Below are positions 2,538 to 34,016 of a stretch of 34,016 bases of DNA, one piece after another. The notes below the pieces were generated by a model. The model did no database searches, was not told where the DNA came from, and saw only the letters and a list, made by a program, of their open reading frames with translations. The translations under genes and the position numbers were made by a program. The stretch is from a virus. Each line of letters starts with the position of its first letter. The stretch's first letter is position 1. The stretch is taken from positions 1 through 34,016 of IMG/VR virus record IMGVR_UViG_3300046012_000211. One strand, 5' to 3'.

Positions 2538-3895
2538 ACCGTCTCCAATCACTCCTCGGCTCCGCTCGCTCGGCATGGGACGGCGGGCTCGAGATCGCCC
2601 TGATGAACGGCCACAGCTACCCGCTGGCGGGGCTCCACCAGACGATCGGCGGCAAGGTCGAGGACATCGACGTCGGCTACGAGAGCCTCGTCTACCGGGC
2701 GTACATGTCGAACGCGGTCGTGTTCGCCTGCGTCCGCGCCCGGCGGGACCTGTTCACCGAGGCCCGCTTCGCCTTCCAGGACATGCGTGGCGGGCTGCCC
2801 GGCGACTTCGAGGACGGACGGGACGGGCGGAACCCCGCGACCGGCGAGACGGCGCTCCTCGCCCACCCGTGGCCCGGCGCGACGACCGGCGATCTCCTCA
2901 AGTACCTCATCACCGACAACGACTTCGCGGGCAACGCCTTCGTCGCGAGGCGCCGCAACCGGCTCGTCCGGATGCGCCCCGACTGGACCCAGATCATCCA
3001 CGGCTCGCCCGATCCAAACGGGAACCTGTGGGACCTCGACGCCGAACTCCTCGGCTACGCCTACCAGCCGGGCGGCAAGGCGGGCGGCCGGCCCCTCGTC
3101 TTCCTCGACGTGAGCGAGGTCGCCCACTTCGCGACCACTCCGGATCCGCTGACGAAGGTCCGCGGGATGAGCTGGCTGACCCCGATCGTCCGGGAGGTCA
3201 TGGCCGACGAGGCGATGACCGAGCACCGCCTCAAGTACTTCGAGCACGGCGGCACGCCGAACCTCGTGGTCAAGACGCAGTACACCGACGTCAACAAGCT
3301 CACCGAATTCATGAACTACCTGAAGCAGAACCACGCAGGCGTGACCAACGCCTACAAGATGATGGGCTTCACCGCCGGGGTGGACGCGACCGTCGTCGGT
3401 TCGGACCTCAAACAACTCGACTTCAAGGTCGTCCAGGGTGGCGGCGAGACGCGAATCGCGGCGGCGGCCGGGGTGCCGGCGGTCCTCGCGGGGCTGTCCG
3501 AGGGGCTCAGCGGGTCGAGCCTCAACGCGGGCCAGGGCTTCACGAGCGCGATGCGCCTGTTCGCCGACCTGACGATGAGCCCGGCCTGGCGGAACGCCGC
3601 GGGATCGCTCGAGCAGATCATCCGGACCCCGTCGGGCACGAGGCTCTGGTACGACATCCGCGGCATCCCCGCGCTCAAGGACGACATCAAGTCCGCGGCC
3701 GAGGTCCGAGCCCTCGACGCGACCGCCCTGCGGACCCTGTCCGACGGCGGCTGGGACGCCGACGCGATCGTCGATGCGATCGTCGCCAACGACTGGAAGC
3801 GGCTCAAGGGCAAGAAGACCGGGATCTCGGTCCAGATCCAGAACCAGACACCCGCCGGCAACGGCAAACCCGTCACGCCAGGAGCCAAACCATGA
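2534..3895 (+). CDS. Portal protein (HK97-type)
   Basis: The 453-residue product fits the Phage_portal family. Features include the early YMSNAVVFACVRARRDLFTEARF block, a DLLKYLITDNDFAGNAF helix, the WTQIIHG/LWDLDAELLGYAYQPGG wing region, VSEVAHFATTPDPLTKVRGMSWL, and VPAVLAGLSEGLSGSSLNAG near residue 320. It forms the dodecameric ring at the head vertex through which terminase packages DNA and to which connectors bind. It starts at a GTGA overlap with the small membrane gene and ends at an ATGA overlap with the protease-capsid gene. The C-terminus is polar and low in complexity, as usual. Confidence 0.93.
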   Translation: MNRLQSLLGSARSAWDGGLEIALMNGHSYPLAGLHQTIGGKVEDIDVGYESLVYRAYMSNAVVFACVRARRDLFTEARFAFQDMRGGLPGDFEDGRDGRNPATGETALLAHPWPGATTGDLLKYLITDNDFAGNAFVARRRNRLVRMRPDWTQIIHGSPDPNGNLWDLDAELLGYAYQPGGKAGGRPLVFLDVSEVAHFATTPDPLTKVRGMSWLTPIVREVMADEAMTEHRLKYFEHGGTPNLVVKTQYTDVNKLTEFMNYLKQNHAGVTNAYKMMGFTAGVDATVVGSDLKQLDFKVVQGGGETRIAAAAGVPAVLAGLSEGLSGSSLNAGQGFTSAMRLFADLTMSPAWRNAAGSLEQIIRTPSGTRLWYDIRGIPALKDDIKSAAEVRALDATALRTLSDGGWDADAIVDAIVANDWKRLKGKKTGISVQIQNQTPAGNGKPVTPGAKP

Positions 3896-6174
3896 ACCCT
3901 GAAGACCTCGCTGGCGTTCCGCCGGCCCGCCTGCCCTTCCCCGTCACCCGTGCCGAGGCGCGACCGATCACGACCCGGGCGTCGGAGGGGATGCCGACGA
4001 TGGTCGGCCGCTTCTCGACCTTTGGCGACTGGTACGAGGTGGATTCGCTGATCGAGGGCCACTTCCTCGAATCGGTCGGCACCCGCGCATTCGAGAAGAC
4101 GATCAGCGAGAGCCGCGCCTCGATGAAGGTCCTCTACGACCACGGCCACGACCCGCAGATCGGCAACAAGATCCTCGGGCCGATCGAGGAGCTCGGGACG
4201 GACGCGGGCTACGTCGTCCCGCTGTTCGACACGAGCTATAACCGCGATCTCGCCCCGGGCCTCATCGCTGGCGTGTACGGCTCGTCCTTCCGCTTCACCG
4301 TCGAGAAGGACGTCTGGGACTACACCCCGGCGCGCTCCGCGCACAACCCCGACGGCCTGCCCGAGCGGACGATCACCGAGGCCCGCGTCTACGAGTTCGG
4401 CCCGGTGACGTTCCCGGCCAACCCCGCGGCCACGGCGGGGATCCGCTCCACCACCGACAACTTCTACCAGCGCAGCCGCGACCCCGAGGCATTCGAGTCG
4501 CTCCTGCGCTCCGCCCAAGTCGCCCGCACTCCGGCCCCGGCCGGAGCCGCAGCCCGGTCCGATGAGCCGCCGGCGAGCACTCCGAGTGAGCCGCTCGAAC
4601 CGGACACTCCGCGGCCACCCGACCCACCGCCGGCCATGCCGGCCCCCACCGAAGACCCGCTGAGAAGCGGGTCTCTTGATTCTCAGGAGAACCGAACCGT
4701 GGACTACATCACCCGCGACGAGAAGACGGCGCGCATCGACGAGCTCAAGGCCGAGCAGAGTCGGACCGGCGTCGAGTACCCGGGCGTCATGCCGCCCGAT
4801 GTCCAGGCCCGCTGGGACGCGGCCGTCAAGGAGCAGGACGACCTCGAGCGCGACGTCGCCGCATGGGACGCCCGCCAGGCCCGGATCGCGGCCAACGCCG
4901 CGAACGCCCAGCTCCGCGAGACCGCCCCGTACAGCCCGCCGGTCGTCAACCAGATCAACCGCAAGGGCCAGTCCGACATCTACGACATCGGCGGCCTCCG
5001 CAGCGGATCGCGCAGCGACGAGGAGTACCGCTCAGGGCTCCGCGACAACGCGATGCGCTCGGTCGAGACGAGCCGGTTCCCGAACCCGAACATCACCCAG
5101 GACGCGGCCCGCGAGCAGGCGGCCCACCTCCTTGACTTCAAGGACTCGCCCGACAAGGAGATGGCGACCCGCTTCCTCCAGACCGGCAACCCGGCCTACC
5201 GGAGCGCGTTCGAGGCGCTCGTCGCGGGCCGTCACCTGTCCCCCGAGCAGGAGCGCGCCGCGGCCCTCGCGGTCGTCGGCACGACCACGACCGGCGGCTA
5301 CGCGGTCCCGTACATCTTCGACCCGACGATCATCCACACCGGCGCCTACACGAACATCAACCCGTTCCGGCAGATCTGCCGGGTCGAGACGATCGTTGGC
5401 GGCAACGTCTGGCGCGGCGTGAGCGCCGGTGCCATCGCGGCCCAGTACCGGGCTGAGGGTGACGCCATGACCGAGGGCGGCCCGACGTTCGCCCTGCCGA
5501 CCTACACCGCCCAGCGGGCGGACGCCTTCGTGACGCTGTCACGCGAGGCCCTTCAGGACCGGCCCGACTTCGTGTCCGAGCTGTCGTCGATCATCGACGA
5601 GGGCAAGGCCACCAACGAGGAGACCCAGTTCTCCATCGGCGTCGGCACGACCGTCTTCCCCTCGGGCATGTTCGTCAAGGGCAAGTTCACGGTCAAGGAG
5701 ACGATCACCGACAACACGTTCGCGGTCGCCGACCTCGACGCGACCGAGGCGGCCCTGCCGCTCCGCTTCCGTCGGGACGCGGTCTGGATGCTCGCCCGTG
5801 GCGTCATCCGGATCGTCCAGGGCTTCGAGACGGCCTACGGCAAGTACTTCAACTCCACCCTCGGCTACCCGGCCGTCGGCGATCCGGCCAACAACCCGGG
5901 CGGCAACACCGGGCTGAGCCTCCTCGGCTATCCCGTCTGGGAGACGCCCTCGGCTCCGGTCACGGTGACCGGCGACGACACGGTCGTCGGCATCCTCGTC
6001 GCCCCCAAGAACTACATCATCGTCGACCGAGCCGGCATGGAGGTGGAGATCATCCCCAACATGTTCGACGCGACGACGGGCTTCCCCACCGGCCAGCGCG
6101 GCCTCGCCGCCATCTGGCGCAACACCGCCGGCCCGCTCAATGCGGACGCCGGTCGCCAGATCAACATCAACTAA
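3892..6174 (+). CDS. Prohead protease-major capsid protein fusion (HK97 type)
   Basis: One uninterrupted 760-residue frame holds two normally separate proteins. Residues about 20-190 are an HK97-type prohead serine protease: VLYDHGHDPQIG supplies the likely catalytic His (about 84) and GVYGSSFRF the Ser (about 131-132). A Pro/Ala/Glu-rich linker (about 210-265) follows. The capsid part begins near DYITRDEKTARIDELKAEQ (delta-domain-like coiled coil) and continues through TTTTGGYAVP (about 463) into the HK97 capsid fold. No stop separates the parts, but a hairpin, an SD and a GTG lie at the junction, so a separate capsid product may also be made. Protease-capsid fusions are known in HK97-like phages. 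Confidence 0.93.
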   Translation: MNPEDLAGVPPARLPFPVTRAEARPITTRASEGMPTMVGRFSTFGDWYEVDSLIEGHFLESVGTRAFEKTISESRASMKVLYDHGHDPQIGNKILGPIEELGTDAGYVVPLFDTSYNRDLAPGLIAGVYGSSFRFTVEKDVWDYTPARSAHNPDGLPERTITEARVYEFGPVTFPANPAATAGIRSTTDNFYQRSRDPEAFESLLRSAQVARTPAPAGAAARSDEPPASTPSEPLEPDTPRPPDPPPAMPAPTEDPLRSGSLDSQENRTVDYITRDEKTARIDELKAEQSRTGVEYPGVMPPDVQARWDAAVKEQDDLERDVAAWDARQARIAANAANAQLRETAPYSPPVVNQINRKGQSDIYDIGGLRSGSRSDEEYRSGLRDNAMRSVETSRFPNPNITQDAAREQAAHLLDFKDSPDKEMATRFLQTGNPAYRSAFEALVAGRHLSPEQERAAALAVVGTTTTGGYAVPYIFDPTIIHTGAYTNINPFRQICRVETIVGGNVWRGVSAGAIAAQYRAEGDAMTEGGPTFALPTYTAQRADAFVTLSREALQDRPDFVSELSSIIDEGKATNEETQFSIGVGTTVFPSGMFVKGKFTVKETITDNTFAVADLDATEAALPLRFRRDAVWMLARGVIRIVQGFETAYGKYFNSTLGYPAVGDPANNPGGNTGLSLLGYPVWETPSAPVTVTGDDTVVGILVAPKNYIIVDRAGMEVEIIPNMFDATTGFPTGQRGLAAIWRNTAGPLNADAGRQININ
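4654..4673 (+). promoter_or_regulatory. GNRA-loop hairpin at the protease/capsid junction
   Basis: GACCCGCT pairs perfectly with AGCGGGTC around a GAGA tetraloop, an 8-bp stem with a GNRA loop. It is followed by a pyrimidine-rich TCTTGATTCTC and then AGGAGA and GTG 4699. This is the layout expected between two cistrons, yet the reading frame runs through it without a stop. It could be a translational spacer, an RNA stability element or a weak attenuator setting the fusion:capsid ratio. Confidence 0.6.
4699..6174 (+). CDS. Possible internally initiated major capsid protein
   Basis: GTG 4699 lies in the same frame as the fusion and is preceded by AGGAGA at 4685-4690 with an 8-base gap, an ideal Shine-Dalgarno arrangement in the middle of an open frame. 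Starting here gives a 491-residue protein with an N-terminal delta-like coiled coil (RDEKTARIDELKAEQ; DLERDVAAWDARQARIAANA) and the complete HK97 capsid fold. Capsid is needed in hundreds of copies and protease in far fewer, so separate production would make sense. Whether it is used cannot be decided from sequence; the full fusion could instead be cleaved by its own protease. Confidence 0.5.
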   Translation: MDYITRDEKTARIDELKAEQSRTGVEYPGVMPPDVQARWDAAVKEQDDLERDVAAWDARQARIAANAANAQLRETAPYSPPVVNQINRKGQSDIYDIGGLRSGSRSDEEYRSGLRDNAMRSVETSRFPNPNITQDAAREQAAHLLDFKDSPDKEMATRFLQTGNPAYRSAFEALVAGRHLSPEQERAAALAVVGTTTTGGYAVPYIFDPTIIHTGAYTNINPFRQICRVETIVGGNVWRGVSAGAIAAQYRAEGDAMTEGGPTFALPTYTAQRADAFVTLSREALQDRPDFVSELSSIIDEGKATNEETQFSIGVGTTVFPSGMFVKGKFTVKETITDNTFAVADLDATEAALPLRFRRDAVWMLARGVIRIVQGFETAYGKYFNSTLGYPAVGDPANNPGGNTGLSLLGYPVWETPSAPVTVTGDDTVVGILVAPKNYIIVDRAGMEVEIIPNMFDATTGFPTGQRGLAAIWRNTAGPLNADAGRQININ

Positions 6175-23564: not shown

Positions 23565-23971
23565 GCGATGACCGGGCGCGGTTCTATCCGCGCGGCTGGT
23601 TCGATGGACCGCTCGCGATCGTCACGTCGAGCCACGTCCGCATCCACTACCGATCCCAAGAGGAGCCGTGGTGGCACGACGATCGGGCTCTGGCGCGGTG
23701 GTTCCGCGGGCTCGTCGCCGAGAGATCGGCGCAACGGCGGGGTCGGCGCGGCTACATCCCCGATCGGGTCTGGTTGCCGATCCTCGCGGCCTTTGGAAAC
23801 GCCTGCGCCTACTGCGGCGCGACGGACGTTCCGCTCGAGAAAGAGCACCGCGTCGCGGTGTCTCGGGGCGGCACGGACGATCCGTCCAACCTCGTCCCGG
23901 CGTGCAAGCCGTGCAACGTGCGCAAGAGCAACCACGATCCGGCCGACTGGCCGCTCCTGGTGGACGCATGA
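23561..23971 (+). CDS. HNH endonuclease
   Basis: The 136-residue protein carries a classic HNH core at residues about 80-125: NACAYCGATDVPLEKEHRVA (Cys82, Cys85, His96), VSRGGTDDPSNLVPAC (Asn110, Cys115) and KPCNVRKSNHDP (Cys118, final His). The N-terminal 75 residues include RFYPRGWFDGPLAIVTSSHV and a basic RSAQRRGRRGYIPDRVW. It lies within the early operon far from terminase, so a packaging role is less likely than DNA processing or homing. Confidence 0.88.
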   Translation: MSDDRARFYPRGWFDGPLAIVTSSHVRIHYRSQEEPWWHDDRALARWFRGLVAERSAQRRGRRGYIPDRVWLPILAAFGNACAYCGATDVPLEKEHRVAVSRGGTDDPSNLVPACKPCNVRKSNHDPADWPLLVDA

Positions 23972-24708
23972 ATGTCTGGCTCCGCCTGTCTGCCACCTTC
24001 CACGAGCACCCGAAGATGCTAGCCGTCCGCGTTGACGCCGTCGGCAAGGCCGACTCCGCCGAGCTCGGCTGGTATCGCCTGCTCATGGCCGCCAAGCGGT
24101 ACGGACGCTGGACGTTCGCCTCGGAAGCACACCTGGAGCACGTCGCCGGACCGTACTACCGCTTCGTGGCGCTGTACCGCACACACCATCTGCTCGACGG
24201 TCTGACCGTCCACGACGGCGAGACGTACAACGCGATCAAGACGCCCGCCGAGCGGAAGGAAGAGCAGCGTCAGCGTGACAAGGAGTCACGCGGGGGTGTC
24301 ACGGACGATCGTGACATGCCGCGTGACACAAATGTCACGCTAGAGGAGAGAGATAAGAGAGACAAGAAAGAAGAGAGAGATAGTCCGGCATCCGCCGCCG
24401 CCGATCGTGACTGTCTCGACACCTACTACGAGCTGACCCTCTACCGCCCGTGGGGCCAGTGGTCCGGGGACAAGTTGCGCGAAGCCGCAACCACCTACGG
24501 CGACGAGAACGTGTCGGCCGCCATGCGGGCCGAGGCGACCGCGGATCCCGATCGCAAGACGCTGATCGACCGGACCCTCGCCGGCCTCGCTCGAGGCCTG
24601 GAGCGGGAGCAGCGGAACCGCAAGCCGAAGCCGCGGACGATCCGCGTCGTCACCGACGCCGAGCGGGCGGCGGCGATGGAAGAGATCCGGCGGGAGTCGT
24701 TGTCGTGA
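23968..24708 (+). CDS. Putative replication initiator / helicase loader-like protein
   Basis: The 246-residue product has an N-terminal region like phage replication proteins with a winged-helix start (MNVWLRLSATFHEHPKMLAV, SAELGWYRLLMAAKRYGRWT, SEAHLEHVAGPYYRFVALYR, LLDGLTVHDG). A charged linker (about 95-145) and a DnaD-like helical C-terminus (LDTYYELTLYRPWGQWSGDK, LREAATTYGDENVSAAMRAE) follow. The linker DNA contains six alternating GTGAC half-sites, as expected of an origin within an initiator gene (lambda O). No helicase or primase motif is present. It starts at an ATGA overlap with the HNH gene. Confidence 0.7.
   Translation: MNVWLRLSATFHEHPKMLAVRVDAVGKADSAELGWYRLLMAAKRYGRWTFASEAHLEHVAGPYYRFVALYRTHHLLDGLTVHDGETYNAIKTPAERKEEQRQRDKESRGGVTDDRDMPRDTNVTLEERDKRDKKEERDSPASAAADRDCLDTYYELTLYRPWGQWSGDKLREAATTYGDENVSAAMRAEATADPDRKTLIDRTLAGLARGLEREQRNRKPKPRTIRVVTDAERAAAMEEIRRESLS
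24273..24386. other. Candidate replication origin: GTGAC iteron pairs plus polypurine tract
   Basis: Three inverted pairs are seen: GCGTGAC-aagga-GTCACGC (24273-24291), TGTCACG-gacgat-CGTGACA (24297-24316) and GCGTGACA-caaa-TGTCACGC (24321-24340), so six half-sites with cores 10-13 bp apart. A seventh CGTGAC is at 24406-24411. Right after the third pair, 24342-24382 is almost pure purine and far less GC-rich than its surroundings, a plausible unwinding element. The array lies in the linker of the initiator gene. Confidence 0.7.
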
Positions 24709-33148: not shown

Positions 33149-34016
33149 GTGAAGCGGCTCGGCGTCTACGTCGGCGTGGCCGCGCTGATCCTCGCCGGCG
33201 CCTCATCGTCGACCCCCACGCGGTACGACCGTCAGCAGGACGCCCGGATCGCCGCGCTCGAGTCGGCGCTTGCCGCACGGACTCCGACGCCAAACGCTAC
33301 GCCGACCGCGACCCCAACGCCGACACCGACGCCTACGCCGACGGCGACGCCCGCCCCGACGGCGACGCCGACCCCGACACCGACGCCGACCCCGACACCG
33401 ACGCCGAACCCCGGGACGGTCCTCTCACCGGGCGCGGATCTCGCCACCGCCCTGAATGCCTTGCCCGAAGGCGGAACGCTGACCCTTCACGGCGGGACGT
33501 ACACCGTGCCGTCGATCATCACGACGGCCAAGGCGTTCACGCTCCAGGCGTACCCCGGCGAGACGCCCGTCCTCACGAGCTCCGGGCGCCCGGACTTCCT
33601 GTACCTCCGCGGCGGCCCGAACGTCATCACGGGCATCACGTTCAAGGCGGGCGGCGGGACGTACGACGACAGCATGGGATCGGCCCTGCTCGAAGTCGAG
33701 GTCGGGGGCCACGACGTGACCGTCGAGGGCTGCACCTTCCTCGGCCACTCGCTCATGGCGAGCCGCCAGCAACTCTTCTACGTCGCCTCGGCCACGGGTT
33801 CGATCACGATCCGCAACAGCGTCCTCGACGGCGGTCAGATGCGCGGCGCCGGCGTCCACATGTACCACGACCCCGGACCGGCGGGCGTCACCGTGACGGG
33901 CAACACCGTGCGCAACTTCTCGTACGAGGCGGGGATCCTCGTCGATCAGCTCGCGTCGAACGTGCTCGTCGAGTCGAACGTCATCACGAACACGAGCATC
34001 GCGATTGCCTACTGGA
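33149..34016 (+). CDS. Secreted right-handed beta-helix protein with Thr-Pro linker (3' partial)
   Basis: From GTG 33149 the frame stays open to the end of the window (289 codons). It begins with a signal-like segment MKRLGVYVGVAALILAGASS, a short coiled coil DARIAALESALAA, and a Thr-Pro/Ala linker of about 45 residues (33280-33412). Then come parallel beta-helix repeats: GGTLTLHGGTYTVPSIITTA, LRGGPNVITGITFKAGGG, VGGHDVTVEGCTFLGHSLMA, GSITIRNSVLDGG, GVTVTGNTVRNFSYEAGILV, NVLVESNVITNTSIAIAYW. This is a pectate-lyase-like fold, either a glycan-acting enzyme or a cell-surface protein. Thr-Pro linkers of this kind are common in Chloroflexota secreted proteins. Confidence 0.8.
   Translation, partial: MKRLGVYVGVAALILAGASSSTPTRYDRQQDARIAALESALAARTPTPNATPTATPTPTPTPTPTATPAPTATPTPTPTPTPTPTPNPGTVLSPGADLATALNALPEGGTLTLHGGTYTVPSIITTAKAFTLQAYPGETPVLTSSGRPDFLYLRGGPNVITGITFKAGGGTYDDSMGSALLEVEVGGHDVTVEGCTFLGHSLMASRQQLFYVASATGSITIRNSVLDGGQMRGAGVHMYHDPGPAGVTVTGNTVRNFSYEAGILVDQLASNVLVESNVITNTSIAIAYW

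Follow-up and report, generated by a model that had tools for sequence, protein, structure and literature searches.

In bacteriophage lambda and the Stx phages the iterons are located in the middle of gene O and are followed by an AT-rich unwinding tract, and iteron changes that are neutral for the protein abolish plasmid establishment (PMC7466680). Similarly, oriL of SPP1 lies inside gene 38, which encodes the replisome organizer gp38 (PMC6316719), and ORF20 of phage 80alpha cannot be complemented in trans (PMC5499656). The locus described here resembles the lambda and Stx origins in having repeats inside a putative initiator gene with an easily unwound tract behind them, and it resembles SPP1 gene 38 and 80alpha ORF20 in that a replisome-organizer gene would carry its own origin, with repeats adjoining an AT-rich region. 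It differs from lambda, with four iterons, and from Stx, with six, in that those iterons have another sequence and are bound by O whereas six 6-bp half-sites in mixed orientation are found here, and in that its putative initiator, P0001, showed no match to O-like families in Pfam, PHROG or NCBIfam. The SPP1 repeats are described as direct repeats, and the 80alpha linker, for which there is genetic evidence of an embedded origin, is without sites of the CGTKAC type (CGTGAC or CGTTAC). Among lactococcal phages, the rep gene of Tuc2009 is annotated as containing the origin and rep of TP901-1 is an experimentally supported replication protein, which likens both to the present case; as an instance of the same code their origin motif was rejected, as the repeats are different and there is no CGTKAC array. 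Most phage origins are, to our knowledge, unmapped. By analogy, the present locus is best read as an intragenic iteron origin with an unwinding tract, which would work like the lambda ori in O or the SPP1 oriL in gene 38.

The window, i.e. the whole stretch of DNA that was analysed, is an IMG/VR virus record of 34,016 bases. Its relevant features are as follows.

23968-24708, + strand: putative replication initiator gene, an open reading frame which encodes P0001 (246 aa) and contains the array
23968-24279, + strand: N-terminal DNA-binding-type domain of P0001 (residues 1-104), from the predicted structure
24244-24291, + strand: basic arm PAERKEEQRQRDKESR (residues 93-108), compared with the arms of other initiators; its role is presumed
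24274-24279, + strand: half-site 1, CGTGAC, codons CGT GAC (RD)
24285-24290, - strand: half-site 2, GTCACG on the + strand, read as ..G TCA CG. (SR)
24298-24303, - strand: half-site 3, GTC ACG (VT)
24310-24315, + strand: half-site 4, CGTGAC (RD)
24322-24327, + strand: half-site 5, CGTGAC (RD)
24334-24339, - strand: half-site 6, GTC ACG (VT)
24342-24383, + strand: purine tract (39 purines in 42 positions), putative DNA-unwinding element
24406-24411, + strand: seventh, outlying CGTGAC (RD), beyond the purine tract

An earlier reading of this DNA from the sequence alone had placed six GTGAC cores here in three inverted pairs with arms of 7, 7 and 8 bp and spacers of 5, 6 and 4 bp, all of which proved exact on recheck, and the seventh CGTGAC that it reported at 24406 is likewise present. 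Every one of the six cores extends to CGTGAC (GTCACG on the other strand), and half-sites 5 and 6 together form the 20-bp palindrome GCGTGACANNNNTGTCACGC. The order had been described as alternating; the sites in fact run F R R F F R, in convergent, divergent and convergent pairs, and do not alternate strictly. The half-sites had also been placed near one helical turn apart; their starts are in fact 11, 13, 12, 12 and 12 bp apart and thus, with a mean of 12 bp, slightly more than one turn.

With 117 copies against 96 expected the GTGAC core is itself common in the window, and it is the cluster that is uncommon: nowhere else in the 34 kb do at least four cores occur within 68 bp. In 60 genomes simulated with a third-order Markov model (Markov-3) the tightest hexamer cluster that was not of low complexity comprised 3-5 copies, as compared to six in the array. 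When the gene was redrawn 20,000 times with the phage's own codon usage while the protein was kept, GTGAC cores reached a maximum of five (mean 2.05) against the six observed (P<5e-5), and CGTGACA a maximum of three against five. The array is explained neither by chance nor by the encoded protein. Moreover, the half-sites fall in different frames, where they encode RD, SR and VT, and the repeat is therefore a feature of the DNA. Elsewhere in the window, near the end of the record, positions 33301-33420 contain tight repeats of GCCGAC and GACGCC, whose 18-bp period suggests a coding repeat.

The array is followed directly by what the sequence-only reading had called a less GC-rich purine tract, and this description is borne out on the scale of the whole window, whose least GC-rich 45-mer starts at 24328 (GC 0.40) and whose most purine-rich 45-mer starts at 24339 (0.89). 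Both abut the array, and an easily unwound tract is thus predicted next to repeated sites that lie inside the coding sequence of the putative initiator. We consider it very likely that this temperate phage starts its replication at the array, within the gene that encodes its initiator, binding and origin activity being presumed in this reading. Cumulative GC skew, which had been proposed as a check, shows no extreme at 24.3 kb and lends the origin no support.

What kind of protein does the gene encode? The start of P0001 overlaps the stop of an upstream HNH open reading frame (ATGA). Its N-terminal domain carries a WLRL...HPK signature and a predicted helix-helix-strand-helix-two-strand wing order, and its basic arm resembles those of other initiators of the CGTGAC type, for instance AKSPAQRKAEQRQREKEARE in L184. 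BLAST and tblastn found no relatives of P0001 in phages, viral contigs or genomes, and neither its sequence nor its fold matched an entry of the PDB. It has no match in Pfam or NCBIfam, the cut-off of PF09681 (Phage_rep_org_N) not being reached, no significant HMM match to the PHROG replication initiation families 2447, 3926, 2509 and 9474, and no signal of a DnaD-like C-terminal domain. A scan of PHROG returned only two weak matches, the better of which was to phrog_1882 (E 0.022, full library); searched against this one genome, phrog_1882 has P0001 as its sole match in the phage (E 2.4e-4). This family has no assigned function, yet it co-matches with PHROGs 2447 and 3926 in L224 and L521; the initiators of L170, L224 and L521 all match these two replication-initiation families and phrog_1882, the last weakly in L170.

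An HMM was built from the N-terminal domains of 27 further phage initiators that bear arrays; the motif itself and a W-x-[RK] signature had partly guided the choice of this training set. Among 2097 open reading frames the HMM gives P0001 an E-value of 1.5e-7, and the L521 initiator alone outscores P0001; with the basic region trimmed the similarity is weak (E 0.011), P0001 again being next after L521. P0001 thus has an N-terminal W-aliphatic-[KR] domain followed by a basic arm. The protein nearest to it is that of L170 (E 2.5e-10 in the set of 27; 0.0066 when trimmed, in a larger set). AlphaFold2 modelled residues 1-104 with a mean pLDDT of 93.1 from an alignment of 26 relatives (A6), whereas the prediction for full P0001 as a single sequence was useless (pLDDT 45). 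A Foldseek search of BFVD with the 1-104 model gave primosomal protein 1 and replisome organizers as the top named matches (probability 1.00, E 0.03-0.05). By HMM, phrog_1882, model and Foldseek alike, P0001 groups with phage replication initiators, in line with its earlier designation as a putative initiator. Since the alignment steers the model and motif content had a part in selecting the training set, we regard P0001 as a probable rather than a proven phage replication initiator.

The half-sites also lead to initiators when the protein is ignored. When viral contigs were scanned for three CGTGAC half-sites by a DNA pattern alone, blind to protein, 93 loci came up, and they include genes with matches to Phage_rep_org_N and phrog_2509, 9474, 3926, 4880 and 5968. 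Where a locus has at least five sites, these lie for the most part either in the coding repeats of a tail-type protein or in the linker of a phage replication gene, and the initiator linkers so found belong to phages of Firmicutes, Proteobacteria and others. A scrambled motif of equal composition yielded 43 loci with other associations, ParB-like proteins among them, and its commonest matches included no initiator family. In a second motif scan, judged by eye, triplets with a period of 10-11 bp fell almost all in initiator-like genes, whereas those with a 12-bp period were mainly coding repeats, (NVTG)n for example. Across the broader set selected by motif, spacings peak at 10-11 bp, and a site has a purine tract behind it in no more than 23 of the 36 genes; the L170 initiator gene (347-1378) contains 18 CGTGAC sites, mostly 11 bp apart. 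The control scan showed in passing that CGTCAG/CTGACG arrays also cluster in viral contigs (L101, L102, L118), near genes that include ParB-like and DNA-binding families, and these are perhaps another class of site.

Two GTGAC arrays (L085, 322-371; L029, around 1670-1750) are located just upstream of a start codon and not inside the gene. Such placement, and the likeness of CGTGAC palindromes to typical winged-helix operators, would suit the view that the half-sites are operators through which P0001 or a phage repressor controls the early operon while replication starts elsewhere. We consider this unlikely, since six sites deep in a coding linker beside the weakest duplex of the window fit an origin better, and this layout is found again specifically in genes annotated as replication initiators.

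The association of half-sites with initiators is more strongly supported by genes gathered through their protein. Eighty initiators were fetched solely by an N-terminal protein profile of the phrog_2509 family (the motif had served to choose three of its seven seeds; only protein was used in searching), of which 64 are nonredundant. Ranked among 2080 hexamers by over-representation against codon shuffles in which protein and codon usage are preserved, the purine hexamers AGAGAA and AGAAGA come top in these 64 genes, CGTTAC third (181 copies against 46 expected) and CGTGAC tenth (152 against 65). At least three sites within 150 bp are present in 44 of the 64; they occur in all three phases and on both strands, neighbouring sites are 11, 12 or 13 bp apart, and R-to-F pairs within 20 bp are always 13 bp apart. 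In 47 of 50 genes a site is followed, within 40 bp, by the purine-richest 30-mer. Conservation of the half-sites at synonymous positions in homologues, which had been put forward as a check, is thus observed in the phrog_2509 family. Within this family the initiators of Epsilon15 and phiPSA1 are without CGTKAC sites, and the CGTKAC code is therefore not universal.

Could selection at the protein level for a linker rich in RD, SR and VT have produced the motif, with the DNA repeats as a by-product? These dipeptides do recur in the linkers of such initiators, and (NVTG)n-like coding repeats do yield GTCACG arrays in tail-type proteins. Both synonymous-codon nulls, that for the P0001 gene and that for the phrog_2509 set, speak against it, as do the use of several reading phases and both strands, the non-codon periods of 10, 11 and 13 bp and the one-base switches of whole arrays described below; and the comparable array of L085 lies outside the coding region, upstream of the initiator start, where coding cannot explain it. 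We therefore hold this explanation to be highly improbable.

The origin reading accords with the earlier comparison to lambda, with ori inside the initiator gene, in that the same half-sites, spacing and purine tract occur in the linkers of many annotated initiators. The array-bearing initiators of PF09681, phrog_2509/9474 and phrog_2447/3926 share with P0001 the same or a one-base-different half-site at a spacing of 10-13 bp, usually a purine tract behind it, the same N-terminal signature and a basic arm. P0001 differs from them in its divergence, which puts it beyond the reach of PF09681 and the replication-initiation PHROGs, and in the mixed orientation of its sites (F R R F F R), many of the others having more regular arrays of direct sites at 10-11 bp. 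Its gene nevertheless has the features of the CGTKAC type, at least three CGTKAC sites within 150 bp spaced by about 10-13 bp.

CGTTAC is used instead of CGTGAC in phiEf11, phiARI0923, Staphylococcus phage 71, Xanthomonas CP2 and the Rac prophage gene ydaU, and at the level of sequence the replication genes of many phages that look unrelated share these sites, which come in two dialects one letter apart. In two staphylococcal phages whose N-terminal domains are about 90% identical (L273, region 3001-3820, and L349, region 3001-3800) the same five-site array is either all-G or all-T, a difference which, as read from these regions, is a concerted one-base switch from CGTGAC to CGTTAC. An arm pattern of the Q[KR]xR type was found in 24 of 42 CGTGAC genes as opposed to none of 33 CGTTAC genes, in counts that ignore kinship and for a pattern picked after inspection; by eye, the P0001 arm is of the CGTGAC type. 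We conjecture that the basic arm behind the winged helix reads the half-site. CGTKAC may then be one recognition code common to a very broad superfamily of phage initiators, with at least two dialects (CGTGAC and CGTTAC) that switch array-wide with the initiator's reading element, for which the arm is a candidate; we put this forward tentatively, giving it slightly less than even chances. In Rac ydaU (L262, 1228-2016) the CGTTAC sites form two groups of three, which we assume may be related to the Rac origin oriJ.

We found no description of the motif or of iterons in initiator linkers in the open-access literature, and as far as that literature goes the half-site class is undescribed. If it is real, the origins of many phages with winged-helix initiators would be predictable from DNA alone, the odd RD/SR/VT-rich linkers would make sense as DNA sites spelled out in codons, and the one-base dialects, matched by changes in the protein, would constitute a natural experiment on joint change of initiator and origin. 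If the common CGTKAC code is true as well, phage origins could be read directly from sequence and the co-evolution of initiator and origin traced site by site.

Recognised in the window are a terminase large subunit, a fused protease-capsid protein, an exonuclease, an endonuclease VII, an HNH protein, an integrase and a methyltransferase. The protease-capsid protein is an open reading frame of 1199 aa (2575-6174) that matches both prohead protease (S78) and phage major capsid protein, an apparent fusion. Short inverted arrays also mark partition centromeres, packaging sites and recombination arm sites, and the scrambled-motif scan met loci with ParB-like proteins, so that the array might be a site of one of these kinds. 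That seems very improbable to us, as none of the scanned neighbours of the array (HNH, endonuclease VII, exonuclease and unknown proteins) was recognisable as a ParB, a terminase small subunit or an excisionase, the integrase lies 4 kb off, and the shared motifs were found in initiators and not in genes for ParB, terminase small subunit or excisionase.

If the array is the origin, several P0001 molecules would assemble on the six half-sites into a nucleoprotein complex, the purine tract next to them would then be opened, and the host replicative helicase would be recruited, a sequence of events proposed by analogy with lambda and Stx O, SPP1 gp38 and 80alpha ORF20. The helicase would come from the host, loaded directly or by an unrecognised phage loader, because no match to a helicase, primase or helicase loader was found among the open reading frames of the window that were scanned, which take in the small ones only in part.

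No array-bearing close homologue of P0001 was found in phages, viral contigs, genomes or 20 records with related terminases. P0001 is absent from all of these 20, they show no convergent CGTGAC pair except for one in G006, and they carry other replication genes. A search of genomes with the integrase found nothing, and synteny based on the exonuclease was discarded, having led to actinophages, which have a primase/helicase of their own among the genes nearby. Finally, the initiator of a related-terminase phage (L521, 8311-9270) contains different linker repeats (GTGCTAAGCAC, CTTAGCAC and the like), which suggests a third repeat type within the same protein family.
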